From Cafeteria roenbergensis (Eukaryota > Sar > Bigyra > Bicosoecida > Cafeteriaceae), in assembly GCA_008330645.1 (NCBI GenBank), contig VLTN01000005.1, positions 806,001 to 870,000 on the forward strand: a stretch of 64,000 bases of DNA, written 5' to 3'. Of this stretch, positions 264 through 28,988 are shown in pieces. Position 1 is the first letter of the stretch. Each line of letters opens with the position of its first letter. The position numbers were made by a program, and so were the translations under genes. The notes below the pieces were generated by a model. It worked only from the letters and a program-made list of their open reading frames with translations, made no database searches and was not told where the DNA came from.

Positions 264-3200
264 ATGCGGCCTCTGGCTGTCTTTTCGTGGCTCATCGCCG
301 CAGTGGCGGCGAGCAAGCGGCCCTGCCCCGAGGTCATGCACGTGGGCGGGCTGGCGTTCCCGCTCAGTGGCAAGCCGCGGGGTCCTGCCGGGAGGCGCCT
401 CCAGGAAGACGCAGCCGGCGGCGTCCTGATCCCGAACAGGTCAGCGCCGACTGAGATGCTCATCGGCACCAAGTCTGCGTTTCCGTTCAGCTTCGCGGTC
501 AACTCTTCGGCCTCGCCTGGCTTCGCCACTGACTCGGCTGGGCAGCTCAAGTTTTCCGGCTTCGCCTGGGAGCTGTTCGACCGGTGAGTGCGTCTGCCCG
601 GGGCCAGATGCGCGGCGCGGTGATCACGCTGGTCCGGTCTGCGGCACGTTGCGTCGTCGGCTCGCGCCTCCCGGCGCGCGGCTCGGCTCCGAGCGACAAG
701 CGTCACCTGGCTTGCTCGTGTCGAGCGGCACGCGCCCCTTTCGGACCTAGCTCCAAGCTGCCCACCAGTCTCCGCCTCGACCGCTCTCCGCCCCCCCCCT
801 TCGCTCGTGGCACTTTATCGCCCCCTGCAGCTTCCTGTTCCCCATCGCGTCGCGCTTCGGCTCGAACTTCTCAACCTACCGCATCGTGAAGTTCGAAAAC
901 AACGACCAGATCCTCAGGGCCGTCGTGAGCTCGCTGGCCAGGTGGCAAAAAACACACACAAAAACCACGCCGCGCCGGGGTGTTTCCCAGCCCGCGCTGC
1001 AACGCCTCAGCTCGTCGCCAGCCCTGCCCCCCGCCGCTCCCGACCACGCAGGCGAGCGGGATGATCGACGCTGGCCACGCTGCCATCACCAAGACGCCGG
1101 AACGCGAAGCCCTCGTCGACTTCACGACTTCGTGGTGCGTGTCGCCCGCTTGACCCGCTTTTCTCGCCGCGGCCGATTTGCTCCTCCCCGCTCAATCCCC
1201 GAAGGCCCTCGGCGACCCCCCTGGCCGGCCACCTTCCCGCAGGTTCGACACGGGGCTTTCAATCATGACCCGGACCTCGACGGGCATCCCGGTGGACCAG
1301 GCCGTTGCCACCTTGACAGCGGCGACGGGCGTGATCACGAGCGTCGTCGCCCTTGTGGCGTCTGCGGTTCTCGCCATGTCCATCGCGCTGTTTGTGCTTG
1401 AGAGGGCAGTGCCCGGGCCTCGGCCCGTGATGCGCAAGGGCTGCTGCTCGGGAATCAAGGACAGCGGCGTGCTGATCATGCTGTTGCTGGCCCACGTGCC
1501 AGTGCGCATTCCCTCAGGCATGCTGTCTCGACCGGTGGCCGCCATGTGCTCGGTCTCCTCGTCCGTGCTCACAATCGTAGTCACTGCCATTGCCACGGTG
1601 GCGCTCCAATCCGCGACGAACGCGGCCGACGTTACCGGCATCGCTGACCTGGCCGGCAAGTCGCTGCTGGTCCCGGTTGCTTCAACGGCGGCCACGTTCC
1701 TGGACCGCAACTTCTTGGGCGCGCACGTCACGCCTACGGCTACAATCGACGAGGCCCTGGACCGCTTTCGCGGTGGGGAGGGCGACGCCATCCTGTACGA
1801 CGAGCCCGTGCTCGCCGCGTTTATTGGCGAAGACGTCAAGGTTTCTGGCTCTAAGCGGTTCACGCTGGTTGGCGGCACGTTCGAGCTGCAGCAATACGGC
1901 ATCGCCATCAGCCCTGACCTCGGCCTGTCGGTGCGCAAGGCGTTCAACCGCGCGATCCTGTCGGTGTACGGGACCGCCGAAATGGACACGCTTCGCGAGC
2001 ATTGGTTCCACACAGGCGCTGAGGCTGGCAGCATGCCGGCCGCAACGCCGTCCTCCATCACCGACTTCTTGGCCGAAAATTTCATCACCATCAGCATCAT
2101 TGTGGGAGCGGTCGTGGGCACGGCGCTCTTTGCCGGCTTGGCAGCGTTTTGCATTCGCTCGACGCACACCATGTGGCAGTCGGGCAGCTTCAGCTGTGAG
2201 TCGTGCGGCGCGTGGATGGTCGAACGCTGCGCCGGGGAGAAGATCCGCCCCGGGTCGGCAACCCGTCGCCGGCGGCAGTCTGTCGGCTCCGGGCAGTCGA
2301 CCACTGGTCGGGGGAGCGTGCCGCGGTCCGCGGTCATTGCCTCCCGCCCGGTGCCCAGACCGTCTTCCGGCGGCTGCGACTGTTTTCGGAACTGCTGCGG
2401 CTGCCTGGGCCAGCGCCTACCGCGCCGCTCGTCGGCAGGGCCCGTGAGCATCGGCCCGACCTTCTCGAAGAGCCAGCTGACTGCACCCCCCCGGCTCCCG
2501 CCATCGCCGTCCAGCGGGTCCGAGCAGTCAACCGGCAACCCCGCCTCGTGGAAGCCCGACCCCTCGGCAGACGGTGACTGCACCAGCCCCCTATGCCCCC
2601 CCGGGGCCGGCGGGGACACGGCCCAGCCAAGCCGCCTCGAGGCCAAGGCCAGCTGGCGGGTCGGCCCGCTGCGCGACAGCAGCAAATCGCACCCGCGGCA
2701 CTCGAGCCCTGCCGACCAGAAGCCGGAGGAGGGCCAAATATTCCTGCAGCGCATGCCGAGCGACCCGCTGGAGCCCCCGCCCTCGCACAGGCGCCACCGC
2801 GCGAGCAGCTCCGGCCGCCGAGGCAGCGGCCCGGTTCGCCGCGCCTCCCTGGAGCGGATCGAGGCAGCGGCCTCCATGTCTGCGCAGGCAGCCCACGGCA
2901 CCCCGAGCCCCGTGCCTCCGTCGGGTCGATCCTTCTCTCACCGGCGCGAAGTGTCCGGCGCCTCACACCGCTCCGGCTCCCCGTTCGGCTCCGGCCGCAT
3001 CAGAAGCAGGAGCAACGCCCAGCCGCCGTCCGCCTCCCGCGCTGGGCGAGGCACCCCCACGGCCCCCCACGGCCTGGCCCACGTCCGCAGGTCGCCCCCT
3101 CCCAGCGCTCACAGGCGGGCGCGGAGCAACAACAAGACGGAGGTTCGATCGTTCCACTCGGATGCCCTGCTGGGCGCGTGGCGGCCGGCGGGGGGCGGCA

Positions 3201-6016
3201 AGGCTGGCTTTCCGCGGGGGAGCGACGTCAGCAGCAGCGCCCAGAGCGACGGCCGGAGTGATGTGGGCGTGATGGACTTGCCATCCGCTGCTAGCTTGGG
3301 CTCCGACCTGCCGGGCTCCGCCGCCGCGCCGCTCACCGCCGCACAGGCTGCAACTCTGGCCCAGGCCCCGGCAAAGAAGCCCGTGACAGGAGCAGCGCGG
3401 TTTCGCCATCAGCTCAAGGCGTCGGAATCGCGCAATCCGGTCAGTTCGTCGGGCGCGGAAGACATTACCTCGCCGCGGGGCGTCGGTCTGAGCGACTCTG
3501 ATGCGCAGCAGTCGGCGCACGGCGCCGCGGTGGGGGGCGGGGACATAACGGGGCTCGCCAGCACTGCCGCCGGGTCCGGTGTGTCGGAGATGTCCTTTAT
3601 GGGAGACGTTGTGGCTCGGGCGATGGCGGCGGCCGGAAGCCAGCAGAGCGTGGGCATGGGCGGTGGCGGTGGCGGTGGCGGTGGCGCGGGCGGGGGCGGG
3701 GGCGGGGGCGGGGGCGGGGGCGCCACCGGCGTTGAAGCCGGGTCCCAGGTCTCGGTCTGCCCTCCCGGCAGAGCTGCCAGCGGAGCTCACGGTGGGGCGC
3801 AGGAGGCTGCCGCCCCGCAGTCCATCCGGCCACAGCGGCAGACCTCAGCTGACAGTCAGGCGTCGGTCGCAACCAGCGTTTGGAGGGCCCGCGACGGGGC
3901 GTCGCCAGCGGCTTCGCGAGCCGCCTCCGGGACCGGCTTTGACGTCGGCGCGGAGGCGCGACCGGGGCAAGAGCGGCAGCGGCCGCTGCTGATGCAGGTG
4001 CAGGGGGCTGCGGGCGGGGCTGCGTGGGCTGTGCCGAAGGCAAGCCCTCCTGCTGCTGCTCACGCTGGCTCTGCCGTGGAAGTCAGCGCCGCGCCCGTGG
4101 TGCCGGGCGCGCCGGGGAAAGCGGAGGGAGATTCCCGCGGCAGCAGGTGGCGCGCAGACGGCGTTTCCTCAACGGAACTTTTGTCACCGCGGGGGCCGGG
4201 GCTGTCCTCTCCCGGCAACGGCCGTGGCGCCAGCAAGGGCGGCGCAGGCAATCGAGCGGCGGTGCCTGGCTTCAACCGGTGGGACAGCGCCGGGCCCTCT
4301 CCCGTCTCCGGTGCCGCCGTGGGCCTCGACCTGGGCGCCGACGACGCTGGGAAGGCGTACCCAAGCCTTGTTCGGTCGGCGACGACGGGCCCGACGGCCC
4401 AGCCCAGGGCGCCGCCCGGGCAGCTGACTGCTGCGGAGGCGCAGGCAGGGGCGCCCTCGAGGCGCCTCGCCCGCGCTGCCGTCAGGGCGGTGACTGAGAC
4501 TGCCGGGGGGGCGGCCGGAACGCGGAGCGTGAGCGCCTCAAGGGCGAGCGTCTTCGCCGAGGTGGCCGGGCCCGCCCGTGGGGGCAGCGGGCCCCGGGCG
4601 TCGATGGGCCTGCCTCACTCGTTCAGCATGCGGACCCAAGCGGAGATGCCTGCGAGCGACGGCGGTGAGCCTCTGCCTCCGCAGCCGGCTGCAGTGCAGC
4701 CTGCGGTGCCTCTGGAGCAACACCCGTCGTTCGGCATCGACGCCAACGAGCGGCTCTTCCTGAAGCGGGAGCAATGGGCCATGCGCAAGAGCGGAAGGAT
4801 CGCGCCCGTGCTGCCCCCCAACGACCTCCTATGGATGATCTGGGAGCGCGTGGACATCCTCACGCAGCAGGCGCTGCTGCAGCGCGCCATGGGCCGGCTG
4901 GACGTGCCGGCCGACCTGGAGGACGTGCCGCCGGAGGTGATTGAGGAGGAGGCCGCCTTGCTGTCCGACGAGCTTCAGGCGAGGGGCATGGACTCGAAAC
5001 TTGCACGGCGCGCCGGAACGGTGGCCGCGCTTGCGGGCGTGCACGACGATGACAGCGACGACGACCAGCTCGACGACCTCGACAGCGCCGCCGATGGTCG
5101 CTTGGACAGCAGCTCGCAGGCCTCGTATGGCCTGGAGAGCCAGGCCCCCGGCCCTGCTGCAGGGGTTGCCAAGGGCAGAACTCTCGCGCTGGCTATCCGT
5201 GCTGCGCAGCGGTTCAAGTCGCGTCGAGCAGTTGCTGCAGAGCAGGTGGCCTCCCAGGCGCGCAACACGGGCTTCATCGAGTCCGACACTGGCACTGCCC
5301 GAGCTGTGCTGGCCGGGTTTGGGCGAAAGCACCGCAACACGGGGGCCCTTTTTCTCCAAGGTCCGGCTGATGATGGCCCGGCGGGCGGCAGGCCAAGGGC
5401 AGGCCTCGGCCGCAATCTAGCTTGGCAACCCTCGGCGTGCTGCTCGAGGCACCTCTCGGCCTGCAGAGGAAGGGCCGGTCCACACATGACGACCCGGGTT
5501 CGCAGGCTTCGAACCCCTCGCGCTGTCCGCTTTCTGCGGCGGCGGAGGGGGGGTGGTGACGACGGCTCGTTCTTTTGTTTTGGTGATGCTCAAATAAACT
5601 TTGCAGGCTTCGCTTGTTGCGCCGCTTCGTTGCGGATTGGAACGTCCTCGGCGCGCGTTGCCCTCTTGAAACATATGGCATGTGCTTTGCAGCAGCGAAC
5701 AGCTCCGCCGGCCCGCGTGGCGGCCCCTCAGGCTCGCACACGGCAGCATGGGAGACGCACCACAGCCGCCAGAAGCGACGAAGGCGTTTCTTCGGCAGAG
5801 CAACCCCATGAACAATTGCGGCGACGTTCGGGCCACCTCGACGCCTGCCCAGACACGCCTCGCCGAGCCAGCAGCAAGCTTGCCGGCAGCTCGGGGCCCG
5901 CAAGGCCTGCGCGACATTCGCCCCATGAGGCGCCGCGGCCTCATTGGCGCGCCTGGCACGCCTGCCGGTCGTTTGGCGCGCGCGCTGCTGCTGGCCTGCG
6001 CCTGCCTTTTGGCTGA
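264..6016 (+). CDS. iGluR-like channel 1, long cytoplasmic tail (3' end unresolved)
   Basis: Proposed exons are 264-583, 831-924, 1052-1134 and 1243 onward (intron phases 2, 0, 2). The protein starts with a signal peptide (about residues 1-17) and the first part of ligand lobe S1. Exon 3 holds the diagnostic stretch AITKTPEREALVDFT, which matches the TxxxxRE carboxylate-binding motif of AMPA receptors. Exon 4 encodes M1 (about 1315-1400), a re-entrant pore loop and M3 (about 1440-1620), lobe S2, and M4 (about 2085-2165). A disordered tail of more than 800 residues follows, with a glycine run at 3655-3725, then a conserved module at about 4720-5050 and an acidic stretch. There is no amino-terminal LIVBP-like domain. 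The frame stays open past an AATAAA at 5593 to a stop at 6016, inside exon 1 of the next gene, so the true C-terminus is uncertain; a missed 3' intron or a base error is likely. Confidence 0.75.
3655..3725 (+). repeat. GGN/GGC microsatellite
   Basis: An almost uninterrupted GGN tract inside receptor gene 1 encodes about 22 residues that are nearly all glycine. It is absent from the other five copies and probably arose by slippage. Confidence 0.85.
4739..4986 (+). repeat. Tail-module DNA shared with gene 6
   Basis: About 248 bp match 28130-28377 of receptor gene 6 with three differences by eye. The flanking tails of the two genes do not align. This looks like a gene-conversion tract. Confidence 0.85.
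5593..5598 (+). promoter_or_regulatory. AATAAA, possible poly(A) signal of gene 1
   Basis: A single AATAAA lies in the gap between the tail module of gene 1 and the first ATG of gene 2. If used, it would end the gene 1 transcript before any in-frame stop. Whether this organism uses AATAAA is unknown. Confidence 0.3.
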
Positions 6017-9000
6017 TGCCGCGACGCCGACTTGGCAGCTGCCCGCTCGGCGCCTGACCAGCACCGTGCTACCATCGCATGCCGCACTGCGCGCCAAGAT
6101 TCCGAACCGGACCAGTGAGAGCGAGCTGCTGATTGCCACCAAGGAGTCGGGCTCGTTCAGCTTCGTTGTGGGAAACAACTCGCTCACGCCTGGCTTTGTC
6201 ACCAGGCACGGTGGGCCAATCGGGTTCTCGGGCTACTCGTGGGAACTGTTCGAGCGGTGAGACTGCGGTCTGCGAGCCCTTGGGCGGCCCAGCGGCGGCG
6301 GCTGCCGGCTTGGCCAGCAGGCCGAGGCCGCCTGGTGCGCTCGCGCTGCGTGACGGGTTTGTCGTCGCTCCCGCCCGGCATCGTTGTTGCCCCCGCAGCT
6401 TTCTGTTCGAGCTCGCACGTCTGCACGGGAGCAGCTTTCAGACATACCGTATAGTGCTTCTCGCCGACAACGACGAGATTCTCAGGGCGGTGGTGAGACT
6501 GGCCTTCAACGCGAAAGCGCCACTTGCGCCTCGCGTGTCGGCCACGAGGCGGTCGGTGTGCTTGCAGTCAAGGTGCTCAAGCGTCGCTGCCCCCCAAGGC
6601 CGCGCCACCAGACGCACCATGCCATGCCCGCGGTACCCTGTTTCCGCGCGATGTGGTTTCGCCTGTCCCTCCCCTCCGGCCGCGCGCAGAGAGAGGGCTG
6701 GGCGGACGCTGGGCACGCTTCGATCACGAAAACCGCCTCGCGCTCGGAATTGGTCGATTTCACGTCGTCGTGGTGAGTGCACCTCGCAGCCAGCTCGGGC
6801 GGACCTGAGCCGCAGCATCGCTCATGCAGCCTGCCCATCTGGTCACGGCAGTGGGTTGCCGGGGACCGGCGAGCCTGGCGCGTCGACGCCTTGGGCCTCC
6901 TGAAGGACGCTGGCAGCATGCGGACGCGCGGCCAACGCGGATGCCTCCTCCCCCCTCGTGACCCCGCTTCGCTGCTCACTTCGCTGCCCGCCCACTCGCA
7001 GGCATGACAGCGGGCTTGCCATCATGGTCCGCAAACCAGGCCTGATGCAATCCTCAAACTTGCTCAGCATTCTGCAGACAGCCGGAGGCATCATCGTGGG
7101 CACTCTGTCGCTTGTTGGTGCAACGCTTGTAGCGATGGCCGTCGCCCTGTTCATCGTGGAGCGCGCCGCCCCCGGGAAGCGACCCGTCATGCGCCGTGGC
7201 TGCTGCGCGGGCATCAAGGACAGCGCCATCCTGATGGGGCTGCTGTTCACAGGCATGCAGACGCGACTGCCGTCGGGGCCGCTCTCGCGCCCCGTCGCAG
7301 CCTGCTGCGCGATGTCCTCGACCCTCATGGCGGTGATACAGACTGCGCTACTCACGGTGGCACTTCAAACGACGTCGCGCACGCAGTCGGTGTCGAGCCT
7401 GGCGGACTTGCGGGGTAAAACGGTTGTGGTCCCCAAGGCAACCACCGCAATGGACTTCCTGTACGCCAATTCCGTCGGCCAACGGGTGTTGCAAGTGGAC
7501 GCCATCGGCACAGCGCTGGATCTCTTCAAAGCTGGCAAGGGTGATGCAGTCGTGTACGACATGCCAATCTTGACGGCGTTCATCGCCGGCCAAACCCTGG
7601 AGCGCGGAGTCGCCGAGTACGAGCTTGTCGGCGACCTGATGCACCGCGAGCAATACGGCATCGCGCTGCACAAGGGCTTGCCGGCCCAGGAGCTGCACGC
7701 ATTCAACTCCGCCGTCCTCTCGGCGTACGGCACCCCGGAGGTGGCCGCTCTCGGGGAGCGATGGCTGCTCTTCCCTCACAGATCGGCAAACCAGCTGACC
7801 GATTCCATCGAGCTTGAGTCCACCACAGGCCTATTTGAGAGCAACTTCGTGCTCATCACAGAGATCGTTGCGATCATCGTTGGGATGGCCTTGCTCGGCG
7901 GGGCCTTCGTGTTCTGCTACCGCTGGGTTCTCCTCGCTCGAAGCGGCGGATGCTCCAGTGAAGGGGTGCGGGAGTGGCTAGTCCGGCGATGCCTCGGCCA
8001 CTCTTCGGAGTCAGAAGCCCGGATCCGACGGCGCCGCCAGCCCCTGACAGGCAGGGAAGGCAGCCGGGGCTCCGTTGCCGGGCAAAATCCAGATGTGCCT
8101 CAAGTTGCAAGCACGTGGGCTTGCTGTGCTCCCTGCGCCCGCTGCTGCGCGGCAGCCTCGGCGGCCGATGCAGTGCAGCGCCCTCGGCCACCGCGGACCT
8201 CCGTGAGAATCTCTCAGAGTCGAAGCGCCACTGTTGTGCCTTCGCCCTGCGGTGTGCAGACAGAAGTGCAGCAACAGGGCAAAGTTGCATCTGTTTCGGA
8301 GCCCCAAGCAGCTGACTCGACTCGAGCCAGCAGCCGTGGTGGCTGGATCCACTCGCCTCCTCCAAGGCCTGCTGGCGCCGCTGGCATCCTCAAAGCGCGG
8401 AAGCCGTCGCAATGGAGCGAGGATGCGGCGGATGGGCTCGCGAGCGACCCCGCCGCGCCCTCGCGCCGCATCGCGCAGCCGGGGACCTGCCACGTGCACG
8501 CCAGCCCGGAGCGATTCCGGTCGCCCCTGGTAGCCCGGAGGCTCCAAGGCCACACGGCCTCGCCTGCCTGGTGTTCTTCCGAGGCCGGGAGCCCCCATCC
8601 AGCCGGACATCGCGAGCTGCTGCGCGTGCGGAGGAAGGAGACCAGAACCCCCGCCGATCCCTGGAGGCTCGTGGACCAGGCAAGGCTTGGCGGACCGCAG
8701 AGCCCCGTCGCAGAAGCAGGAGAGGCGCTCCAAGTCATCACAACGTCGTGGACAGCACACGACGCGGACTCGGATGACGAGTGTGGTGGCATCCCCGGTG
8801 CCGATTCGCAAAAGCAGCCCGCCTTGCCCAACAAACAAAGGGCCGGCAGCAGGCTGCCCACGAGCGACAACTCCTTGCTGCCTGTTCTGACCTCTGGTCT
8901 GGGGCATGATGCACCAGCGAGTCGCTCCCGCGAAGGATGCGACGATGACGACGAAGACGACAACCCGATGAGTCCGCGCTTGGCCACTCGCCTCGCGGGC

Positions 9001-10200
9001 CCCGCAGCGGGAGGCCGAAGTCCGGCGCTGCGCAAAGGCAGGCACTTGAGCAAGCTGGCGGTGTCGGCCGAGCCCGATTCGCAGCCGCTCACAAAAGAGC
9101 GCCGGCGCTCCCAGAGCGCCGACCGGCGGACCCGCCGCCGCTTCGGCATTCGTGCGGACGGTGCGCCGCTGTCGTCGCGCACAGGCAGCGTTTACGGCAG
9201 CGTGACCAAGTCTGCGCGCTGCGGGGGTCCTGCGAGCCACAGCTCGGCCAGGAGCGGGATCCGGCCGTCGCGGCAGCTTGCCCACCTCGCCGAGCTTGCC
9301 GTCATGGATTCGGTCCTAGGAGGGCCTGGCTCGACGAGCCGCTATGACGACGGCGACGAGCCGGATCCCGTCGAGGCTAGGGCCGACCAGCCAGCAGAAG
9401 TGTCTGCGGACGGCTCAGGCGGCCACAGCAGGCATGCAGCGCCGCCCGGGGGACCCGCCAACGCACTGGAGCTCCACCCTGCGTTTGGTGCGGACGCCGA
9501 GGAGCGCATGGCTCTCAAGCGCGAGCAGTGGGGCATGCGTGTGGAAGGCCGCGTCGCCCCCATCCTGCAGCCGCTGGACCTGATGTGGCTCATCTGGGAG
9601 CGGGTCGACATGATTGCGCAGCAGTCGCTGCTGCAGCGCGCGATGGGCCGGCTGGATGTGCCCCTGGACCTTGAGGGCGTGCCGGCTCAAATCATCGAGG
9701 ACGAGTCCCTGCTCTTGAGCGAGGAGCTCAAAGCAAGGGGCATGCCGCCGCCGCTGGCGCAGCGAGCCGCCATCGCCGCCACCCTCGCAGGCATTCGCGA
9801 CGACGCTTCCGTCAGCTCCGGGAGCAGCGACGTCTCAACCCCGACCGCGTCTCAAATCGCTGACGACAACATGTCGATGCCTGTCCCTGCGGCAGTCGGA
9901 AACGGAAGAGGCCGGGCGTCCTCGGCAGTCAAGCAGGCCACTGCGCCCAACGTGGCCTTGGCCCTCGCGCGTCTCCGCAGGAATGCTGCGGCGGCCGCTC
10001 GGGAAGAGCCGGAGAGCGACGAGCAGGCGTACCTGGCTGCACCGAGTGGCGCCGAGAAGTCGCCCCGGCGCCGGGCACCTCGCCCGCGGGGCGGTTCGCG
10101 CCTCGCATCGCTCGCGATGACCTTTGCTGCATCGTGGTCTGCGACCCCGGCTGGGGATAGCGCGGTGACGAACGATTCTCCAACAGCCTCTCCAACTTGA
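5925..10200 (+). CDS. iGluR-like channel 2
   Basis: Exons 5925-6256, 6399-6492, 6690-6772 and 7002-10200 give about 1235 residues with the same intron phases (2, 0, 2) as its neighbours. The signal peptide is LARALLLACACLLADA. Exon 3 carries SITKTASRSELVDFT, keeping the ligand threonine and arginine. M1 lies at about 7085-7165, the pore and M3 at about 7205-7360, S2 after that, and M4 at about 7850-7935. The tail of about 760 residues ends with the shared module (about 9470-9810). Its module DNA differs clearly from the other five, so this copy has escaped homogenisation. It also has the most divergent pore loop. Function as an amino-acid-gated channel is inferred from the fold; ligand and ion are unknown. 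Confidence 0.85.
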
Positions 10201-10457
10201 ACTGCCCTTCGGCTGGCTTGGTGCCTGCGGCCGCGCCTGGCGCCCCCGCTAGAATTGTGTGTTTCTGTGGCCCGTGGCGGCGAGCGTTTCGCTGCCCGGT
10301 GCCAGTGCGCTGCTTTTGAACCAGCTTTTGGGAGCTGCGTGAAGGTGTGACACGTCTGCAACCAGAGGAGCTCTGCAAAGGACCACTGCATTCGCCAAGC
10401 GCCTTCGCGCGCGCGCGGGAGCGCCCGCCGCGGCACCCCGGTCGCAGAAATCGCGTC

Positions 10458-13400
10458 ATGCGCGCCTTGCTCGTGCTCGTGCTTGCGGCCGCAGCCGCGG
10501 GGTCCTCGGGGCTGCCCGGCCCGGACTTCCTGCACGTCGCCGGGCTGGCGTTCCCGACGGGTCCGGCCTCGAGCCGGCACCACGCGTCCCGGCACCTGGC
10601 GCTGCTTGCCAACTCGTTCCTCTCGACCATCCCGAACCGCTCGTCCCCGACCGAGATGCTGGTGGGGACCAAGACGTCGTTCCCGTTCAGCGTGCCAGTC
10701 GTCGCAAACTCCTCGGATGGGGGACGCTTTGTCACAACCTCGGCCGGGCCCTATCGCTACACGGGCTACTCCTGGGAGCTCTGGGACAGGTGAGCCGCCG
10801 CGGTCGAGCCGTGCGCATGCGCTGCGCCTCTCTGGTTGGGCGCCACGCGGCCGCAGGGCACGGGTCGAGGCGCGACCGGGCGGGAAAGCGCCTGCCGACG
10901 TTGCGGCTGTCCGGTTCACTTGGGCGCAACGCCAAAACACTTTTTTTGCCAGCTCCCGCGCTGCCCAGCCCGCCCCCGCCCCCGCGCGCTCGCAGGTACG
11001 TGTTTCCGCTCGCCCAGCGATACGGCAGCAACTTTACGACCTATCGCATCGTGCCGCTCGCCAACAACGACCAGATTCTGCGCGCGGTGGTGAGTGCGGC
11101 CCAGCAAGCGCCGAGGCACGCGTCGCAACGCGGAGGCCACGCGCTCGCTGGCACGCGCGCGAGTCTCCCTGCGTGCGCCCAGCGTGCCCACTGCGAGCAC
11201 GCGCCCCCCTTCCGCCTGCGCACCCCTGCTGTGTGCCCGCGCTCCCGCAGAGTCTGGGATTGCTCGATGCCGGGCACGCGGCCATCACCAAAACCTCTGA
11301 GCGGGCTGAACTGGTCGACTTCACCACGGGATGGTGAGCGCGGCGGCCGCCTTCCACCCCCCCCGGGGGGGGCGTCTCGCAAGCGCAAGCGGCCACGCAC
11401 TTCGGGCCCACCGTTCGTCCGCGCGAGTGAGTGTCTAGCCATGGTCCCGCCGCCCCGCCACCCCACCACCGCGCGCTCGCAGGTTTGATACCGGCCTCGC
11501 GATCCTGACCCGCACGCTGTCGGGGATTGCCGTCGACCAGGCGCTGGAGACCGCTCGCTCGGTGGGCGGGGTTGCTGGCAGCATGCTGGCGCTCATCGTC
11601 GCCGGCGTGTTTGCCATGGCCATCGCCCTCTTCATCCTAGAGCGGTCGATGCCCGGGCCTCGTCCTGTCATGCGAAAGGGCTGCCTGGCGGGCATCCACG
11701 ACAGTGGGTTGCTCATCACGCAGCTGCTTGCGAGCGCGTCCGTTCGCATTCCGTCTGGATGGCTCTCCTACCCGGTGGCGACATGCTGCGCGTTGACCTC
11801 GTCGGTGCTGACCATCATCGTCACCGCCGTGGTGACTGTGGCGCTGCAGTCTGCCGCCAGCGCTGTGGCTGTCCGGACGTTTTCGGACCTCTCCGGCAAG
11901 ACTGTCGTCATCCCTGAGGCCACGACGGCGCTGTCCTTCGTCAACCGAAACGGCGTGGGCATCAACGTGGTCACAACCAAGAGCCTGGACTCTGCCTGGG
12001 AGTTGTTCCGCGACGGGCTGGGGGAGGCAATGCTCTACGACCAGCCGATCTTGTCCGCCTTCTTGGGCCGCGAAGCGCAGTCGTACGGGAGCAAACGCTT
12101 CGCGCTCGTCGGCGAGATCATGGAGCGTCAGCAGTACGGCATCGCACTCAACCCGGCCTTCTTGAGCGCGGTCCGGAAGGCTTTTGACCAGGCGATTCTC
12201 TCGGTGTACGGAACCACCGAGGTTGCCGACATGCGCTCCCGCTGGCTGTACACTGAGGAAGCAACGGCGGACTCGTCCGCGCTGGAGACCAGCTCCAACC
12301 CGTCGTCCATGCTCGACTTCGTCGTGGACAACATCTTCGCAGTGAGCGTGGTGGTGGGGTCCATCGTGGGCTTTGCGATCGTCGTCGGGTCGATAGCATT
12401 CCTGTGCCGGAGCTCGCTCTCCCTCTGCCGCCGAGGCGAGTGCACGCTGGCCGCGCTCGGGAACTGGCTCGTGGCGAGCTGCCTGGGGGTCACCGAGGAC
12501 AAGGCCAAGGTGCGCCGGCGGCGCCAGAGCGTCATCATGGACGGCCACGCCACCGCCGGCGGCTCGCCGACGAGCAGCAAGACCGCGCCCAAGCCCGACG
12601 TGGCCTCGTGCGCGGGGGCGCGATCTGGCATTTGCGGGGAGTGCTGGAGCCAGTGCTGCGGCAGCGCCCACGGCGCAAGCGCCCCCCGCGCCCTTGAGCT
12701 GACCACTCTCCCCACCGCTGCCGCCGGCACGGGGACCATTGCGTCCGGCGGCGCGTCCAAGGCAAGCGCAGAGCGGTGGCAAAGTGCGGCTCGCGCTGTC
12801 CGCGCCGCGCGCAGCCAGCACCAGCAGTGGGGCGAGGGAGCCGACGCGGAGGAGTCGCAGTTCTTGCAGTCGACGTCCTCAGCCGCCAGGCTCAAGCGCC
12901 CGGCGTCGCACAGAGTCATGAGGGCAGGCGAGCTGTTCGGGGCGGACGCTGCCGCCGCTGCTGCGGCTGCGCGCGGCAAGGCCGCTGGTGTCGCTGCCCG
13001 CCTCATTCACGAGGGCGTGGGCGGGGACTCCTCTGGTGCCGCGGCTGTCGCCGCAACGACCACTTCCGCCACAGCTCCCGGAGCAAAGGCTGGGGCTGGT
13101 GCCAAGCTGGGCGCCGGAGGAAAGTCCCGCCAGCCGCGCGGCGGGGGTCGGGTTGCGCCGGCTTCCGTCGCCTGGGCAGTGCCGGACGACGCCGACGCCG
13201 CCGAAGACGCCGACACGGCCGCCGCCGCCGCCACCGCCGCCGCCGCTGCAACCACCAGAACCGACGCGCTCGGCGGGATCATCGGCGGCGGGGAGGCGCG
13301 TCTGCTGGGGAAGAACGGCTCTGCCGGCGCAGCGGGGACCGTGGACCACGCCGTTGTCCTGTGGGGCGATGAGGACGCTGACACCACCCATGCTGACAAT

Positions 13401-18300: not shown

Positions 18301-18684
18301 TGGGCCATGCGCGCCGAGGGCAAGCTCGCCCCCGTCCTGTCGCCCAACGACCTCCTGTGGGAGGTCTGGCAGCGCGTGGACATGCTGGCCCAGCAGGCGC
18401 TGCTGCAGCGCGCCATGGGCCGGCTGGACGTGCCGGCCGACCTGGAGGACGTGCCGCCGGAGCTTGTGGAGGAGGAGTCGCGGCTGCTGGCCGGGGAGCT
18501 GGTGACGCAGGGCATGGACCCGCAGCTTGCGAAGCGGGCCGCCATGGTTGCCGCCATGGCCGGCGTGCACGAGGACGAGGAATGCGAGGAATTTGGCAAT
18601 CCCTCACCGCTGGGCCTCACCGATGGGCGTGCAGCCTCCGCCAAGGTGCACCCAGCACTGCCACCTGGCAGCGGTGTCCCGTAG
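15395..18684 (+). CDS. iGluR-like channel 4
   Basis: Exons 15395-15726, 15905-15998, 16182-16264 and 16395-18684 give about 932 residues, one of the two short copies. A clear signal peptide (AALLATVAASALFSLAAA) leads into S1. Exon 3 ends with ERAEIVDFTTGW; the residues before it read LTKNI, so the second threonine of the motif is replaced while the arginine is kept. M1 is at about 16475-16550, the pore and M3 at about 16600-16760, S2 has the conserved LYDQPILSAFIG, and M4 is at about 17240-17320. The tail is only about 450 residues and ends with the shared module (about 18235-18570) and 37 further residues. It is closest to gene 5 throughout, suggesting the most recent duplication. Confidence 0.88.
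18010..18574 (+). repeat. Long conversion tract shared with gene 5
   Basis: About 565 bp match 21840-22404 at roughly 99 percent identity by eye. The tract covers the last third of the tail and the whole module. The receptor domains of the same two genes differ far more. Confidence 0.9.
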
Positions 18685-19118: not shown

Positions 19119-22100
19119 ATGAGGGCGCGACCCAGCGTCCTTTGGGTGGCATGGATGTGCGCTATAGCGTCTGGGTCATCGGCGGCAGGAGTCGCGACTG
19201 CCGTGGCTGCGAGGCGACCGTTGCGCCCCCGCGCGGGTGGGCCTCGCGGCTTGCAGCTCGACACGGCATTTCTGGCGAACATCCCCAACCGGTCGTCCCC
19301 GACCGAGCTGCTCATTGGCACAAAGATCGCAACTCCATTCAGCTTCCCGGCTAGTGCGGCGAGCGTGGCCTCTGGGCAGTTCGTTGCCAACTCCGTCGGG
19401 CCCACGAAATTCTCTGGCTTCTCGTGGGAGCTTTGGGACCGGTGAGCATCGGCCCCGGAACGAAGCCTGGCTGGGGCCCTCGCGCAGACCTGCTCGGCGA
19501 CCGCGCATGCCTGGGCTCGGGACCAGAGCCTCCAGAAGCACGAGCCCGGCTGGGAAGGGGCATGCCCTGTCTTTTGGGAAACCGCCGACGCTCTCGATGC
19601 CATCTGGTGCCAGTGCCTGCGCAATCACCGCTTTCAAACGCTCGCAGCTTCTTGTTCCCTCTGGCAACGAGGTACGGCAGCAACTTCTCGACGTATCGAA
19701 TCGTCCAGTTCGCCAACAACGACCAGATGCTCAGGGCCGTGGTGAGAACAGCTCGGCTGCAGTGACGACCAGGCACGCGCCAGCGGCTGACTTTGGCACC
19801 GCGACGTGGCCAGCGCGAGCGTGCCCCGCTGGGCGCCGGCAAGCCGGTGCCGACCGCGCTGGCCCACCGCCTGCTCTTGCCCCGCGTCGCGGAGCGTTTC
19901 CAACAGCTGCGGCCGGCGCGTGGGTCAGGCCTCACGCGGCCGCAACCTGGGCGGCGCAAGGCTCGCATTGAGCGTGACCTGGCTGCGAGCGGTCTCGCGT
20001 GCCTTCTTTGTCTTGCAGATGCTCGGGCGGGTGGACGCTGGCCATGCTGCCCTTACGAAAAACATTGAGCGCGCCGAGATTGTGGACTTTACCACTGGCT
20101 GGTGAGCTGATTGAGTCGCCGCCGCTGCGAGCTGCTTTGACGCGGCGAGGCTGTCGACAAGCTGCTTGGTCAGCATGCTCCTCGCGCCTCTCCCGCTACG
20201 CTCCCTCAGGTTTGATACTGGGCTTGCCATCATGACTCGGACCATGTCCGGGGTCTCGCTGGGGCAGGCCATGTCCACGGTCAACTCGATAGGCGGCGTC
20301 ATCGGCGCTGCCGCATTCCTCCTGGTTGCCGGCCTGCTGTCCATGGCGCTCGGGCTGTTCATCCTCGAGCGCTCCATGCCAGGGCCGAGGCCGGTGATGC
20401 GCAATGGCTTTGCCGCTGGGTGCCGAGACAGCTTGCTCCTGACCACTCAGCTTCTCGTGGGAGCGTCGGCCCGGATTCCGTCGGGCACGCTCTCCAGGCC
20501 CGTCGCGACATGCTGCACGCTCGGCGCGTCGGTCCTCAAGATTGTGGTGACTGCCATTGTGACCGTGTCGCTGCAAGCTGCAGCTTCGTCGATGGCAGTT
20601 TCAAGCTTTTCTGACCTGTCGGGAAAGACGATGCTGATGCCCGAGGCGACAACTGGCGAGATTTACGTGAACCGCAACGGTGTCGGGATCACCATGATTC
20701 CCGCGGAAAACATCGACAGCGCCCTTGTGCGATTTGCTGCAGGCGAGAGCGAGGCAATGCTCTACGACCAGCCGATTCTGTCCGCCTTCATTGGCCGGGA
20801 TGCCGTCACGAACGGCGCAAAGCGCTTCGCCCTCGTCGGAGAAATCCTGGAGCGGCAGCAGTACGGCATCGCTTTGACCCCTGGACTTGACAACCTGCGC
20901 AAGTCCTTGGACAAGGCCATCCTCGCCGTATACGGAACTACTGAGGTCGCCGAGCTTCGCGCCAGGTGGTTGTACACAGAGGAGGCAAATGCAGCGGCCA
21001 AAACCACCAACGAGGTGAGCGCATCTTCGTCGATGATGGACTTCATTACGGACAACGTTCAGCCGGTCAGCATCGTCGTCGGCAGCATCGTAGGCGTCGC
21101 CTTTGTCGTCGGCGTCTTGGCGTTCGTTTGGCGGTCTTCCTGGACGCTGCACAAGCAGCGCAATCTCTCCTGCAGGACGCTGGGCAGCTGGCTGCTGGAC
21201 AGTTGTCTCGGCCAAACTTCGCAAGGCTCTGCCATCCAGCGCCAGCGGACGAGCGGCCTTGGGAACTACAGCACTGGCGACAAGAGCACTTCGGCCATGG
21301 TCCGCTGCTGGCGACAGTCCAAGCAACGTCTCCGCGACTGCTGCAGCGGCAGAGCACCCCAGGCAGCTGCGTCCGGCGAGGCGACGCTCGATGATCCCGC
21401 GCATGCCCAGCCAACGCCCTCCGAGAACTTTGTCCAGGATCCGAGTGCCGCTCCGCTGCGCCGCCCCCCATCACACCGGGTTATGCTTCGAGACGCAATC
21501 GGCGCCCTCACAACCAGCGACCGGGGCACGGACGCAGCCACCGCGAGGATCATTGCGGGAACTGAGGCCCGTGTCTCGCGTCAGGCTGCGCTGCTACGAA
21601 GCATGGGGTCCGGCGACACAGCTCCGGGAGCGGCCTGGGCCGAGCCTGCAGCCTCCGCCGACCTTGACGACAAGCTCTTGCGCGGGGACACCAACAGTGA
21701 TGGCGACGAACTCAAAGCCCCCGCGTCCAAGCACCGCGCCTCCGCGTCTTCCCCAGCGCGGACTGAGCACGTGCAGCAGCTCCCGGGCGCTGCAGCGTCC
21801 ACTCCGAACTCACAGGCGCCCACAGCGGATGTTGCATTTGGCGGGATGGCGTTCGGGCCCGACGGCGGATCGAAGGGCGCAGGCACCCCGCTGTCCGCCG
21901 GACGTGGAGGTCCCCTCTTCGACGTCGTCGCCAAGGCCGTGACCGAGACCCCGACCGCCAGGAGCACGCGCAACTCCAAGACCAGCGAGGGAATGCCCGG
22001 CCTTGCCGCCATCGGAACCGCCGACGACGCGGCGGACTGCGGCGGGGGGGGCTGCCACACCGGGGCGCTCGAGGCCCACCCGGCCTTCGGCGTCACCGCC

Positions 22101-22499
22101 CGCGAGCGGCTCTTCTTCAAGCGCGAGCAGTGGGCCATGCGCGCCGAGGGCAAGCTCGCCCCCGTCCTGTCGCCCAACGACCTCCTGTGGGAGGTCTGGC
22201 AGCGAGTGGACATGCTGGCCCAGCAGGCGCTGCTGCAGCGCGCCATGGGCCGGCTGGACGTGCCGGCCGACCTGGAGGACGTGCCGCCGGAGCTTGTGGA
22301 GGAGGAGTCGCGGCTGCTGGCCGGGGAGCTGGTGACGCAGGGCATGGACCCGCAGCTTGCGAAGCGGGCCGCGGTGGTAGCCGCCATGGCCGGCGTGCAC
22401 GAGGATGAAGAGGACGACACAGTCCGACCTGCGGATCCTGACCAGGGCAAGTCGTCTGCCGCCTTCAGCGTCGTGGCCGTTCGTCCAGCAGATTCATAG
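19119..22499 (+). CDS. iGluR-like channel 5
   Basis: Exons 19119-19441 (9 nt shorter than the usual 332), 19648-19741, 20019-20101 and 20210-22499 give about 929 residues. It has a signal peptide, S1 with ERAEIVDFTTGW at the end of exon 3, M1 at about 20300-20375, pore loop and M3 at about 20420-20590, S2 with LYDQPILSAFIG, and M4 at about 21065-21145. The tail is short, like that of gene 4, and shares with it a phrase near 21737-21775 as well as the 565-bp tract. The shared module covers about 22070-22400 and is followed by a short acidic end. The proposed role is a ligand-gated channel in the plasma or an internal membrane. Confidence 0.88.
21840..22404 (+). repeat. Long conversion tract shared with gene 4
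   Basis: Partner of 18010-18574, with about five differences by eye. Three of them cluster at the end of the module (GCCATGGTT against GCGGTGGTA), which may mark the tract edge. Confidence 0.9.
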
Positions 22500-23053
22500 A
22501 CATGGGGCTCGCTTCATTTGACTTTCGGATTTTCGGTGGCTGAAGCACGTTCGCGAGATTCTACCAGTGGCTTGCTCTGCCTGTTGAGGACTGTATTTTG
22601 ACTGGCGGCACTCAGCCCAGCTCGGCGCGGAGGCAACGTACGAGGAGCTCGGCTGCATGGCATGGCCCTTGCAAGCCTCCGCGTGCCTACGCCTCTGGCC
22701 AAGCGATGCAGGTTTTCTGTGTGCGTGAATGCGATCAGCCAGTGCCGTGATTTTAACAACGCCGACAGCAGCGCAGGCCCGCAGGCCGCCGCATTGCCGC
22801 GCGAGCCAGCCCAGCGTCCAGCCCATGCAACAGTCGCGGACCTCGCCCCCGTGCCCGTGCTAGGCCGTGCGCGCTTGTCCGGAGCACGCTCGAACGGCGC
22901 GCCAGAACGCGCGCACGTTTCCCCTGCAAGCCGGTGGCTCTGCGCGAGCTGAGCGACACGGCGCCGCAAACACGACACATCCGCGACCCACGCTCCCCGC
23001 CCCCGGCGCATCCGAAAAGAAGCGCCCCCCACGCTTACCACGGCTTTCTCGCA
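22500..23053. other. Spacer between receptor genes 5 and 6
   Basis: I see no supported gene, repeat or RNA here. It is the longest gap in the array. Confidence 0.4.
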
Positions 23054-26000
23054 ATGAGCAGCGTGCTGCTTGCGGTGGTGTCTGTGCTGGTGGGCGTGGC
23101 CTCCGGCCTGGAGCCGCCCTCGTTCTTGACCGTCGGCGGCCTCCGATTCCCGCTGAGCGCCGCCCTCGCCGCGCGGGGCGCTGAGCGCCAGCTCGCCTCG
23201 GCGGAGGCAGCTGGCCTCCCGGCCATCCCGAACCGCTCGTCCCCCACCGAGATGCTGATCGGCACGAAGACATCCTACCCGTTCAGCTTCCCAGCCGGCG
23301 GGAACAGGTCCGTCCGCGGCAAGTTCGTGGCCGACTCGGTGGGGCCGCACCAGTACTCGGGCTACTCTTGGGAGCTCTTCAGCAGGTGAGCACCGGGCCG
23401 AAGCGAGCCGCCAGGGTCATCCGAATGCTCTGGGGCCAGGCAGGGGGCACTGCGGGCGGCGCGTGGCACGCGTTCGGGTGCACGCGTGGAGCCGGACTCG
23501 CCAAGCGCCCTGCGCGCTGACGAATGCATGCTTCGACTCGCCCTCGCTCTCCCGCAGGTTCCTCTTTCCGCTGGCGCAAACGTTTGGCTCCAACTTTACG
23601 ACGTTCAGAATCGTCCCCTTCGCCAACAACGACGAGATCCTGCGCGCCGTGGTGAGCCGCGCGCTCCGCTGCTCGATCGGCGCAGGGTTTGCCGTTGCTC
23701 GCTGAAGCACGCAGCCCGCAGAGTCCCCCTGCTCGGCGCGCGCGTGCGAACTCGGGGGCGAGCTTCGGCCCCGTCCAGCCTTTCCCAGTGCCCGCGGTCG
23801 CAGAGCCTGGGCCTCGTGGATGCCGGCCACGCCGCCATCACCAAGACGACCCAGCGCGAGGCGCTTGTGGACTTCACGACCGGCTGGTGAGGACATCGCT
23901 GGCTTGCGGGAAAACTGCCCGCCGGCCCCGCTGTGGAGCCCGGCGCCGAGTGCTCTGTGCCCGGCCCCTGCCACAGCGAGAGCTGCGGGGAGCAGCGCGG
24001 CAAGCGCTGCGTCAGTGGCAGGGGCGATGCATCGGGCGGACGGGCGCGGCGAGCGGAGGTGCCGACGCAGCGCCGGCAGCAACAGCCTGCACCGCCTGGG
24101 CGTCGCTCTCGCGCCTCCCCGCCCCGCGGGGACTGCACCAGGTTCCCTTGGCGGCTTTGAGCGAACGGGTGTCCCCGCGCGCCCTTGCGCGTGCGTGGCT
24201 CGGCCGCGCCGGAGAGCGATGCGCCACGCAACGACCGTGCGTGCTGGGGGCGTGATCCAGCAAACAAGCCCGCTGGTATGTATGGCTTGCGATTCCGGGC
24301 GCCTTCGCAGGTTCGACACTGGACTGGCGCTGATGACTCGCACCGTGACGGGCATCCCTGTAGACCAGGCCATTGCCACCATTTCGGCCGTCGGGGGCGT
24401 GCTAGCCAGCACAATCGCGCTGATTCTGGCAGCTGTCCTGTCCATGTCCATCGCGCTGTTTATTCTGGAGCGAGCAGTGCCCGGGCCACGGCCCGTGATG
24501 CGCAAGGGCTGCTTCTCGGGGATCAAGGACAGCGGCGTGCTGATCATGCTGCTGCTGGCCAACGTGCAGGTCCGAATTCCCTCAGGCATGCTCTCGCGGC
24601 CGGTTGCAACGCTGTGCTCCATCTCATCGTCGTTCCTGACCATCGTGGTGACGGCGGTTGCAACGGTGGCGCTGCAGTCCGCAGCCAGCTCCGTCGCGAT
24701 CACTGGCTTTTCGGACCTGTCGGGCAAGACGCTCGTGATGCCAGCCGCCACCACCGCGGCTGCGTACGTGGACAGGAACGGCGTGGGCATCACCGTGACT
24801 ACCACGCAAACGCTGGACGAGGCGTTGGAGCGCTTTGCAGCTGGCGAGGGCGACGCCATGCTGTACGACCAGCCCATCCTGACGGCCTTCATCGGCACCG
24901 ACGCCGCCGAGACTGGCCGCAAGCGCTTCTCCGTCGTCGGCCAGGTGGTCGAGCGACAGCAGTACGGCATCGCGCTCAACCCAGCGTTTGGCGAGGACCT
25001 CCGCAAGGCCTTTGACCGCGCCATCCTGGCCGTGTACGGCACCAACGAGGTGGCAGAGATGCGAGCCCGCTGGCTGTACACGGACGAGGCGGCAACCGCA
25101 ACGTCCGCGATCGACAGCGCGACGTCGTCCCCATCGTCCATCACAGAGTTTCTCCGGGACAACTTCGTCTCCATCGCCGTGCTAGTGAGCGCTGTGGTCG
25201 GCGTCTCTCTCCTGGTCGGCCTGCTCGCCTTCGCCATCCGCACAGCCCTGAGGGCGCGCCGGAAGGGCGACTGCACGCGGGCCGCCCTTGCCGAGTGGGT
25301 CGCAGCCAGCTGCACCGGGGAGCGGCGCAAGCAGGCCGTCAACAAGCGCCGCCGCGTGGCTGGCCACGGCAGCATGGACGCCCCCTCAGAGGCCGGCGGG
25401 TCGAGCGTTGCTCCAAGCCGGGCCGGAATGAGGCCGAGCGACGCGGCGTCCATGTCCAGAGTTGGGTCAAGCAGGGCTCGCCAGCACCTGACGTCGGCCT
25501 CCGACGGCGCGCAGTCGGCACCGAGACCCCAAACGACTCGCTCCTGCAGCTGCGGCAGTCGACGGCTCTGTCGCTGGCTCTGCTGCCTGCCGGCGACGTC
25601 AAACACCATCCTTCCGTCGCTCACCGCAGCTGTGCCCCCTATGCCTTCCCCGCCTCCGGCAGTGGGCCCCAAGTGGGCGTCTTCGGACCATCAGCGCTCC
25701 ATCAAGGGCAGGTCAAGCCGGCGCGGACTCGTCCCGTCGTCCACGGCCCCTGGCGTCGCCGTCGGCAGAGCCACAGGCAAGGCTGGCACCAACGGGTCCA
25801 CTCCTGCCACGCTGTGGGCAATTCGGGGGGCCACGTCTGCGATCGACGAAGCGTCTGCCGCAGCCGGCAGAGCAGAGCCGCCCGGCCAAATGGCAGGAGC
25901 GCGTGCCGCACTCTTGTCGGCAGAGCCGCTGATGGCCTGGCCGGACGGGCCCACCGCGAGCCCACCAGGGGCGCGCGTTCGCTCGCGGGTCCGCACAGGC

Positions 26001-28951
26001 TCGCCCAACTTGGAGGGGCACTCAGGCCACGACCTCACGGCGGGGCCGTCCACGCCCGCCGAGAGCGACAGGGTCGATGACGGCGGTTTCATGACGTCGG
26101 GCAGAGCCCTTGTCCGTCGGCCCTCGTTTCGCCGAGTCGGGTCGGACCGGCATCGCGGACCCTCTTCCAAACCGGCTCGGCAGAGCCCAAGCGTGACATC
26201 CGGCAGAGCAGGCAGAGCTCCAAAGCAGCCAGCAGACAGCCGCGCCGCAGCCTCGCCTCTTGCAGGCCGGACCTGCGCCAGAATCGAATCCTTCCCAGCG
26301 GCTGACACCGGCACGGCGGAACAAGTGTCCGTCTCCATCCCAGCTTCGGCGGTGCTCTCGTCGCAGTCGCACGTCGCCTCCGCAAGCGACAGCTTCCCCG
26401 CGCCGACGCCGCAGGCGAGGGAGCTGGACCGCTGGCGGCGCTGGCGGCGGCCTCCCCGGGCGCGGCCGCGGCTGCCGTCGGGCTTGCCTCCCGAAACGTG
26501 GCGCGCCCAGCGCCGGTAGAGCCGGCAGAGCCGGTTGAGCCGGATGGCGCGGACGGGGGCCCGGTCTTGTCGCCGAGGATGCCGGTGTCCGCGTCGCTCG
26601 CCGCGGCGGCGAGCTCGCTCGTCGTCGGCGGCGGCGGAGGCCGCAGCGGCGTGGGCAGTGGAGCCCGCGGAGCCGTCGGTGCCGACGCCACTGCCAAAGC
26701 CGGAGGCAGCCCGAGCAACGCCCACGGGATACACCGGAAGGATTCAGCGTCAGCTGACCGAGAAGGAGGAGGCGTCACGGTCACCAGACCAGCCCGGATA
26801 TCGCGCGTCGTCACCTCAGAGGCAGGCGATCGTCCACCCAGGAGCTCTGCTGCACAGAGCTCTGCTGGGTGGGGCTCTGCCCACCGAGGTGCACTGTCAG
26901 CTGACGCCGTAGCGTTTCCAGCAGGAGACCTGAGTCCGAGCCACGGGGCCATCGACGCCCCGGTCAGACCCGCATCGAAGTCACGTCAGGCCTCTGTCAT
27001 GGCCAGGTCGAGCTTGAGAGCCAACCCCACGCAGTCCAGCGCCGGCACGCTCCCGGGGGCCAAGGAGCCGCGAAACCGCTCGAGGCGGGACTCGTCCCTC
27101 GCGACGATTGGAGCTCCTGACGACTCGGCGGTGGTCGAAGGGCCCAGCGCGGAATCCCAAGCCGCGCCCGGCTCTACCGGCGACCCGTGGGGCTTCCTGG
27201 GGACAGGGCAGCATCGTGCCGGGGCGGCGGAGAAGCGGGGCGGCACCGGCGATCGCAGCTCGGAGGGATCGGGGTCAGACTACGACGTCGTCGCCCAGGT
27301 GATGCGGCGGGCGTCAGAGGCCAGCGGCGCTGCCGTCGGCGCGCCCTCGCGCGGCGCAGCCGCTGCTGGAGCCCAGGCGGGCGACCCGGCGCTGCTGTCG
27401 CGGCCCAGCGAGGCGACGCATGCTCCGTCCGCCTCGCAGCCCAACTGGGCCACAGTGGCTCTGCCGGGAAGTGTCCGGCAGAGCCAAGACCCCGGTGGGG
27501 GCCTAAGCGCCGGGAGGTCCAGGGCCTCCGCGGGGCGGGTTTCGCCGGGGCTGGGCCTGTCGCCCAAAGCGCGGTCGGTGAGCGGCACCCTCGGGGCGGG
27601 CCTGCAGGGCTTCGCTGGCTTGATTGTGCCGTCGGAGGCGCTTCAAGAGGGCAGCCCGGCCGTCCGGGTTGCGCGCAGCCCTTCTGGCAGAGCCAATGGC
27701 AGAGCCAATGGCAGAGCCGCGGGCTTGTCCCGACCCTCCAGCGGTGTGTCGTGGGGAGCTGGTTTGCACAGCGGTGCGGGTGACGGCGCCCCGGCAACAG
27801 TGGGTCCGCTGCTGGTCGTGACGTCGACGCAGCGGGCTGGCGGTGGGTCCGGTGTGGCGCTGGGCGTTGGTGCTGCCAGGGGCGTCTTGGGTGCCGACGA
27901 GGGGGCAGTCGGACAGGTCAGGGCCGCATCAACCCCGCGTCACACCCTGGTCAGGGGGGCTTTTGGGGGGGGTGCACTGGGCGCGGGGTCCGTTGCAAGG
28001 TCAGATTCCGCGGGCAGGTCCCCGCGATTCCAAGGAGCCGGTTCGGGGCCTCATGGGGGACTCCACGGCCCGCCATCCAAGGGCCCCTCGTCGGCCCCCG
28101 CTGACCACGCTGTCAAGCCGGCAGAGCTTGACGCCGACGAGCGGCTCTTCCTGAAGCGGGAGCAGTGGGCCATGCGCAAGAGCGGAAGGATCGCACCCGT
28201 GCTGCCCCCCAACGACCTCCTATGGATGATCTGGGAGCGCGTGGACATCCTCACGCAGCAGGCGCTGCTGCAGCGCGCCATGGGCCGGCTGGACGTGCCG
28301 GCCGACCTGGAGGACGTGCCGCCGGAGGTGATTGAGGAGGAGGCCGCCTTGCTGTCCGACGAGCTTCAGGCGAGGGGATTCCTGCCCAGGGTTGCCAGGC
28401 GTGCCGCGATGCAAGCAGCGCTCGCGGGGCTCGACGACGACGACGACGACGAGGACGAGGACGACGGTTACGACGACGACGACGACGACTACGGGGACCA
28501 CGACGATGACGAGGGCGGTCACGAGGAATCCGCCCTGGGGGCTAGGGGTGTCACTCGCGGCGGCGTAGCCGGCAGATCCATCGGCGCTCGCGGGGAAGGG
28601 GGCTCTGAGAGCGCCGGCAGAGCCACTTCGACAGCCGCTGGGAGCAAGCCGCCCATGCTGAGAGGGCGCTCCACCCTGGGGGCCACGCTTCTCGTGCAGC
28701 GGCTCGGCAGAGCCGCGAAGGAGCGGCGGCTGAAACGCGCAGGGAAGGCTCTGCCGGCGCGATCGCTCGCCCCGCCCCCCGCCAACGACTTCATCGCCGC
28801 AGACGGCGCAGTGCACGCCCCGACGAAGCGGGGGCGTCGCCGGCCGAAGCGGTTCTCCACGCTGGGGCACTTCGCCTCCAAGCTGGTGGCAGAGCAGCGT
28901 GCCAAGCCTGTGGGAGCGGCGCAGGTGCTTGACCTCATGAAGAGAGCGTGA
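23054..28951 (+). CDS. iGluR-like channel 6, very long tail; frame change near 26.4 kb
   Basis: Exons 23054-23385, 23558-23651, 23804-23886 and 24311 onward have the array's phases. The receptor part is intact: signal peptide SVLLAVVSVLVGVASG, exon 3 with AITKTTQREALVDFTTGW, M1 at about 24390-24470, pore loop and M3 at about 24520-24680, S2, then M4 at about 25150-25235. The frame used from 24311 closes at 26519, while the tail module and C-terminus lie in another frame that runs to 28951 and is open well upstream of 26.4 kb. Either a small intron with no obvious sites or a base error links them. The tail is rich in the GGCAGAGC word, unlike genes 1-5. The module (about 28125-28450) is followed by a nearly pure Asp/Glu stretch (28430-28530) and a basic end. 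Confidence 0.72.
28130..28377 (+). repeat. Tail-module DNA shared with gene 1
   Basis: Partner of 4739-4986, with three differences in about 248 bp by eye. It lies at the far end of the array from its partner. Confidence 0.85.
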
Positions 28952-28988
28952 TGCTGCCGCGATGGGCTGGACGGCTGCATCGCGCCCC

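Follow-up and report, generated by a model that had tools for sequence, protein, structure and literature searches.

The window analysed here, a 64,000-nucleotide stretch of the Cafeteria roenbergensis genome (C5:806001-870000; probably strain BVI, now called C. burkhardae), has a GC content of 64-75% in 2-kb steps. The genome searched comprised 36,303,456 bases in 167 contigs. By six-frame reading and splice-site inspection, six genes were located at 264-28951, all on the same strand and head-to-tail, with an identical order of parts: an N-terminal hydrophobic segment, S1, M1, a pore loop, M3, S2, M4 and a long tail. An earlier note on this DNA had claimed six head-to-tail genes at this place, and the claim stands, as strand and part order are common to the copies and 6/6 cores were matched. 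At the level of sequence, we consider an array of six four-exon genes at this position confirmed. Its features are:

264..6016, forward strand: g1, exons 264-583, 831-924, 1052-1134 and 1243-6016, core and long tail (from splice sites, frame and core match)
4712..5062, forward strand: g1 tail domain, ~117 aa, predicted helical
5925..10200, forward strand: g2, exons 5925-6256, 6399-6492, 6690-6772 and 7002-10200 (splice sites, core match)
9463..9813, forward strand: g2 tail domain
10458..15053, forward strand: g3, exons 10458-10789, 10996-11089, 11251-11333 and 11483-15053 (splice sites, core match)
14148..14498, forward strand: g3 tail domain; the 351 bp at 14143-14493 are shared with g4 at 99.1% identity
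15395..18684, forward strand: g4, exons 15395-15726, 15905-15998, 16182-16264 and 16395-18684 (splice sites, core match)
18235..18585, forward strand: g4 tail domain, within a 569-bp block (18007-18575) 98.9% identical to g5
19119..22499, forward strand: g5, exons 19119-19441, 19648-19741, 20019-20101 and 20210-22499 (splice sites, core match)
22065..22415, forward strand: g5 tail domain; block 21837-22405 is common to g4
23054..26519, forward strand: g6, exons 23054-23385, 23558-23651, 23804-23886 and 24311-26519; the frame ends before the tail domain
26306..28951, forward strand: open frame after g6, carrying the sixth tail domain in a frame different from that of g6
28103..28453, forward strand: sixth tail domain, after g6; the 248 bp at 28130-28377 match g1 4739-4986 at 98.8% identity

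The three introns per gene that had been proposed earlier are borne out by the predicted splice sites. All 18 introns read GT...CAG, with the donor GTGAG in 17 and GTGCG in one, and they lie at homologous places in phases 2, 0 and 2 in each gene. Exon 2 (94 nt) and exon 3 (83 nt) have the same length in 6/6 genes. The N-terminal segment and the first part of S1 come from exon 1. S1 continues through exons 2 and 3, and its last residues are encoded by exon 4 together with M1, the loop, M3, S2, M4 and the tail. Tail length across the array ranges from about 430 to 1290 residues (uncertain for g1), in line with the long tail in a protist host that had been described.

Protein identity between the cores is 40-66% pairwise (dN 0.28-0.61, dS 1.0-1.65), g2 being the most diverged of the six copies. 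Based on these values the six cores are old copies, and the core identity and dS rule out an assembly artefact or a recent duplicate. The core dN/dS ratio was below 0.5 in 15/15 pairs, with dS near saturation. A search of the organism's own genome (E<=0.01) yielded six core matches and six tail-domain matches in 36.3 Mb, all within the array; the count of cores rests on a single-protein query, not on Pfam genome scans. In the whole-genome search, PF00060 and PF10613 had no match and PF00497 had one sub-threshold match, in g1. These genome-wide Pfam blanks do not show absence, because the genes are intron-split and diverged. Among 14 control genomes, PF00060 matched in 0, PF10613 in 11 and PF00497 in 12.

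Two parts of the array have irregular frames. First, g1 and g2 overlap: the start of g2 (5925) lies inside the end of the g1 open frame, and the 3' end of g1 (6016) is uncertain. Second, the g6 frame breaks at 26306-26519, beyond which the conserved tail domain is read in a different frame; the best intron joining g6 to that frame scores 9.2, compared with 10.0-11.8 for the 18 accepted introns (ad hoc scale). The end coordinate given earlier, 28951, lies in a frame other than that of the rest of g6 (24311-26519). It is conceivable, although we consider it unlikely, that the array is partly decaying, with broken tails in g6 and perhaps g1, and that only some copies are working receptors. The overlap of the g1 and g2 reading frames is consistent with such decay, as is a g6 frame that stops before the tail domain and has no good joining intron. 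However, the cores are open in 6/6 genes and the dN/dS ratios are low in every pair, and an assembly base error or an unusual intron could account for g6.

Several other features flank the array. A repetitive open frame of 1920 residues (L017:2-5764), with a hydrophobic stretch at its C-terminus, lies just upstream of g1 and stops about 240 bases short of the window. Two short tandem arrays lie directly 3' of the receptor genes, at 28985-29146 (30-bp unit x5.4) and 29415-29624 (38-bp unit x5.5). On the reverse strand, the open frame at 29630-31711 has a vitamin B6 photo-protection domain (UVB_sens_prot, PF04884, E 3.6e-64), and the long open frame at 33158-37900 contains tetratricopeptide repeats (TPR_12, E 4.5e-29).

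The ligand-binding core was recognized in all copies. PF00497 (solute-binding family 3) matched 6/6 cores at E<=0.001. The earlier note had also suggested PF00060 and PF10613 as profile checks, and these gave a divided answer: PF10613 matched 4/6 cores at E<=0.001 and 6/6 at E<=10 (below the Pfam cut-off for g1), whereas PF00060, the Pfam channel model, was found in 1/6 at E<=10, with an E value of 0.035, which is below its cut-off. Models of glutamine- and basic-amino-acid-binding proteins matched 6/6 cores at E<=0.001, although the g1 scores (57 and 42 bits) are to be set against cut-offs of 303 and 256. When a profile of the six cores was compared with the PDB (381 sequences at E<=1), the best match was 2pyy, the ligand domain of a bacterial glutamate receptor (5.9e-20). 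Its first alignment, at 85-180, crosses all three splice joins and thereby supports the exon model. GluN2B (5un1, 1.2e-14) was aligned in one stretch, profile 151-444, which covers late S1, M1-loop-M3 and S2 up to its end but not M4; GluN2 was the best eukaryotic match among the best 60 of the 381. Residues T151, R156, S/T313, S/T314 and D352 (g1 numbering) are kept in 6/6 copies. By GluA2/GluN2 positions, we take T151 and R156 to be the carboxylate-binding Thr/Arg pair of S1, and S/T313-314 and D352 to be the S2 ligand residues. A predicted binding domain of the solute-binding-protein type, split by a putative channel segment, is well supported by the sequence.

Hydropathy above 1.5 marks M1, M3 and M4 in 6/6 genes. 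The signal peptide and pore listed in the earlier note were recovered in part: the N-terminal segment exceeds this value in every gene except g1 (5/6), the pore-loop segment in 2/6, the rest being below 1.5. M4 is indicated by a hydrophobic segment after S2 in 6/6 genes and by a long helix in the model of exon 4, and lies outside the PDB sequence match. With PF00497 in 6/6 cores and the 2pyy and GluN2B profile matches, the described glutamate-receptor-type core with M4 is upheld. The segment M1-loop-M3 alone had no match in the PDB at E<=10, and a query with the 200 residues at the start of exon 4 gave significant matches to the S2 part only (GluN2B at 3-197 had an E value of 0.36, not significant). 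Among the copies the segment is conserved, with 73% mean column identity and invariant residues in the loop and in M3. One of these is Arg254 in the pore loop; it presumably lies near the site that is acidic in AMPA/GluN1 pore loops, a hand comparison with a register of plus or minus one or two residues that serves as a lead only. The pore loops read L[LF][AVT]xxxxR[ILV]PSG in 6/6 genes, and a TxVGYG-type K+ filter is absent from them. The SYTANLAA gate motif is also absent from M3 in 6/6 genes, where T-A-x-x-T-V-[A/S]-L-Q is found in its place; in a plant review, this motif is described as highly conserved among glutamate receptors (PMC3483616).

Structure prediction, which had been proposed as a further check, was carried out for the exon-4 part only, and the clamshell spans spliced exons. 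Within this part, an AlphaFold2 model contained, in order, a strand, M1, a pore helix, M3, an alpha/beta S2 lobe and M4. Confidence in the model is modest (pLDDT 62.7, pTM 0.38; nine aligned rows, three of them bacterial receptors). In a Foldseek search, AMPA/NMDA chains (best E 3.2e-7) made up 46 of the 50 best rows and glutamine-binding protein the other four; TM-scores of the receptor rows were 0.25-0.33 by query length.

Two alternatives to a working channel can be weighed on these data. The proteins might be amino-acid uptake proteins, i.e., a binding protein fused to membrane helices, given that the top curated models describe bacterial solute-binding proteins that belong to uptake systems. 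We regard this as very improbable: M1-loop-M3 interrupts the binding domain and M4 comes after it, as in receptors; a Pfam scan (E<=1) of the six exon-4 products and of the open frame following g6 detected neither a permease nor an ATPase domain; and Foldseek aligned receptors along the exon-4 piece. The other alternative is that the copies are non-conducting amino-acid sensors, which have retained the clamshell and helices, have a decayed pore and signal via the tail domain. It would fit a transmembrane part that has diverged past sequence detection, the missing gate motif, the invariant arginine in the pore loop, the PF00060 score below cut-off and the conserved tail domain. However, the conservation of M1-loop-M3 among copies, with its invariant loop and M3 residues, the pore-helix arrangement in the exon-4 model, and dN/dS below 0.5 in all pairs (with dS near saturation) argue against pore decay, and we give this reading limited weight, well short of probable.

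The absence of an amino-terminal (LIVBP-type) domain, as stated in the earlier note, was confirmed. The distance from the start codon to the preceding open frame is 499, 257, 341, 434 and 554 nt for g1, g3, g4, g5 and g6, and there is none for g2, while the model of the domain (PF01094, ANF_receptor) has 353 positions. On the array contig C5, PF01094 had no match; other contigs gave 14, of which 13 were over the cut-off. An amino-terminal domain (ATD) hidden in an upstream exon was ruled out by this spacing and by the absence of PF01094, for which the 14 other matches were a positive control. Because of these 14 matches on other contigs, the LIVBP-type ligand domain that is missing in the array exists elsewhere in this genome. 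They were found on contigs C11, C7, C13, C56 and C28 (L019-L023), and also on C1 and C71, in large open frames of up to 3296 aa, three of which have three matches each.

The C-terminal part of the tails contains a conserved domain of ~117 residues (81% mean column identity), and its six matches in the genome are only in this array. No Pfam family was found for it (best E 0.092, CbbQ_C, in 2/6 copies, not credible), and the only PDB match by sequence was at E 0.7, for the g3 copy alone. Its predicted structure is a low-confidence four-helix model (pLDDT 63.7), for which the best Foldseek E value was 1.7.

The tail-domain DNA of g3, g4 and g5 is 97-98% identical, with blocks of 98.5-99.1%, whereas core DNA in these pairs is 61-66% identical. 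Differences at fourfold sites were 0/69 in the tail domain versus 120/207 in the core for g3-g4 (Fisher p 3e-21), 3/69 versus 130/206 for g4-g5 (p 1e-19) and 3/70 versus 138/193 for g3-g5 (p 1e-24). The 569-bp g4-g5 block also includes adjoining tail. Between g1 and the domain after g6, 7/52 fourfold sites differ over the whole domain and 96/184 in the core (p 3e-7). No such tail/core contrast was seen for g2-g3 (21/43 versus 89/144, p 0.16). The conversion groups roughly match the relatedness of the cores. Since fourfold sites in the tail domains are nearly unchanged while core sites of the same pairs have diverged, gene conversion in the tails appears to be the best explanation of near-identical tail DNA over diverged cores. 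A conserved tail domain restricted to these genes, with apparently homogenised DNA, is what we consider new here.

The S1-M1-P-M3-S2 core without ATD is common to the array and to prokaryotic GluR0-type receptors (Synechocystis GluR0; groups 1 and 2 of PMC2950845). According to two papers, bacterial members consist of a ligand domain and a channel with M1 and M3 only (PMC3483616, PMC2950845). They differ from the array, which has M4 and the long tails, in lacking M4 (PMC3483616), and a K+ filter, absent from the array, is given for 12/22 bacterial forms in PMC2950845. A scan of genome contigs revealed 3 relatives among 26 stretches, with open frames that end after S2 and lack M4 (by eye); these bacterial loci (L014-L016) align to the array protein at 24-25%, over residues 84-386 or 84-421. 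On each of these three MAG contigs, the glutamate-receptor-like gene, which by eye lacks both M4 and a K+ filter, adjoins a similar neighbour gene. No relatives were found among 40 stretches in a scan of viral contigs. With animal ionotropic glutamate receptors (iGluRs), of which NMDA GluN2 was the best eukaryotic match among the best 60 of 381, the array shares the order S1-M1-P-M3-S2-M4 and the Thr/Arg and Ser/Thr-Thr/Asp ligand residues, by GluA2/GluN2 positions. The array differs from them in having neither ATD nor SYTANLAA, and in a tail domain of its own.

In insect ionotropic receptors (IRs), M4 is present and the tails are short. The tuning members are similar to the array in the absence of the ATD, in their tandem arrays and in being chemosensory, as described in PMC2924276 and PMC6472016. 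The same papers report that most insect IRs have no ATD, that the Pfam domain occurs only in IR8a and IR25a, and that a few others have long N-termini of very low similarity to the ATD; the earlier assertion that known animal receptors carry the clamshell ATD is thus not supported as a general rule. IRs lose at least one glutamate-contact residue (PMC2924276), whereas the array keeps these contacts and has long tails. In favour of the earlier note, the plant review attributes an ATD to eukaryotic receptors in general (PMC3483616).

Distribution among unicellular eukaryotes was also considered. A 2010 survey that included unicellular eukaryotes detected no receptors in those it covered (PMC2924276), which also favours the earlier note. 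According to later papers, diatoms and brown algae have glutamate-receptor-like proteins (GLRs), expanded in some species (PMC11085791), and receptors are reported in Amoebozoa and Discoba (PMC12226733). Against these reports, the suggestion of an undescribed receptor system was too strong. What the diatom and brown-algal GLRs (PMC11085791) share with the array is a stramenopile host. Among the open-licence papers listed, none described this array in its title or at the start of its abstract, and no open-licence article joining Cafeteria, glutamate receptor and stramenopile was found; the Cafeteria genome paper of Hackl et al. (PMC6972860) has no mention of glutamate, receptor, ion channel or tandem. 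Since ATD-less eukaryotic receptors and stramenopile receptors are already known, we consider a lineage-specific variant a fair description of the array.

Taken together, the sequence and model data suggest that the six genes probably encode ATD-less subunits of the ionotropic glutamate receptor type, forming tetrameric amino-acid-gated cation channels that serve as chemoreceptors. We infer the channel function from the architecture, and the ligand, selectivity and cellular role are put forward as proposals. Four subunits, same or mixed, would assemble into one channel. An outside amino acid may be held by Arg156/Thr151 of S1 together with Ser/Thr313-314 and Asp352 of S2 (g1 numbering); the ligand would close the clamshell, which would pull on M3 and allow entry of cations, perhaps including Ca2+. 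The tail domain might anchor the subunits or couple them to one intracellular partner, with conversion keeping this domain alike among paralogues, and the diverged sensor halves could reflect different ligand preferences. A likely use is chemosensing, by which the flagellate would detect amino acids in solution or its bacterial prey. It has also been considered that the array retains an ATD-less, M4-bearing form between GluR0-type and ATD-bearing receptors, instead of having lost the ATD, and that the tail module is an output common to six sensors; we view this as rather doubtful.

If the proposed function is correct, a cultured bacteria-eating protist would possess a set of small receptor channels for amino acids. 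This would bear on prey sensing by single cells and on the question of an ATD in the glutamate receptors of early eukaryotes. Variable sensors joined to a homogenised output end would be an unusual arrangement, if the tail module is indeed under gene conversion.
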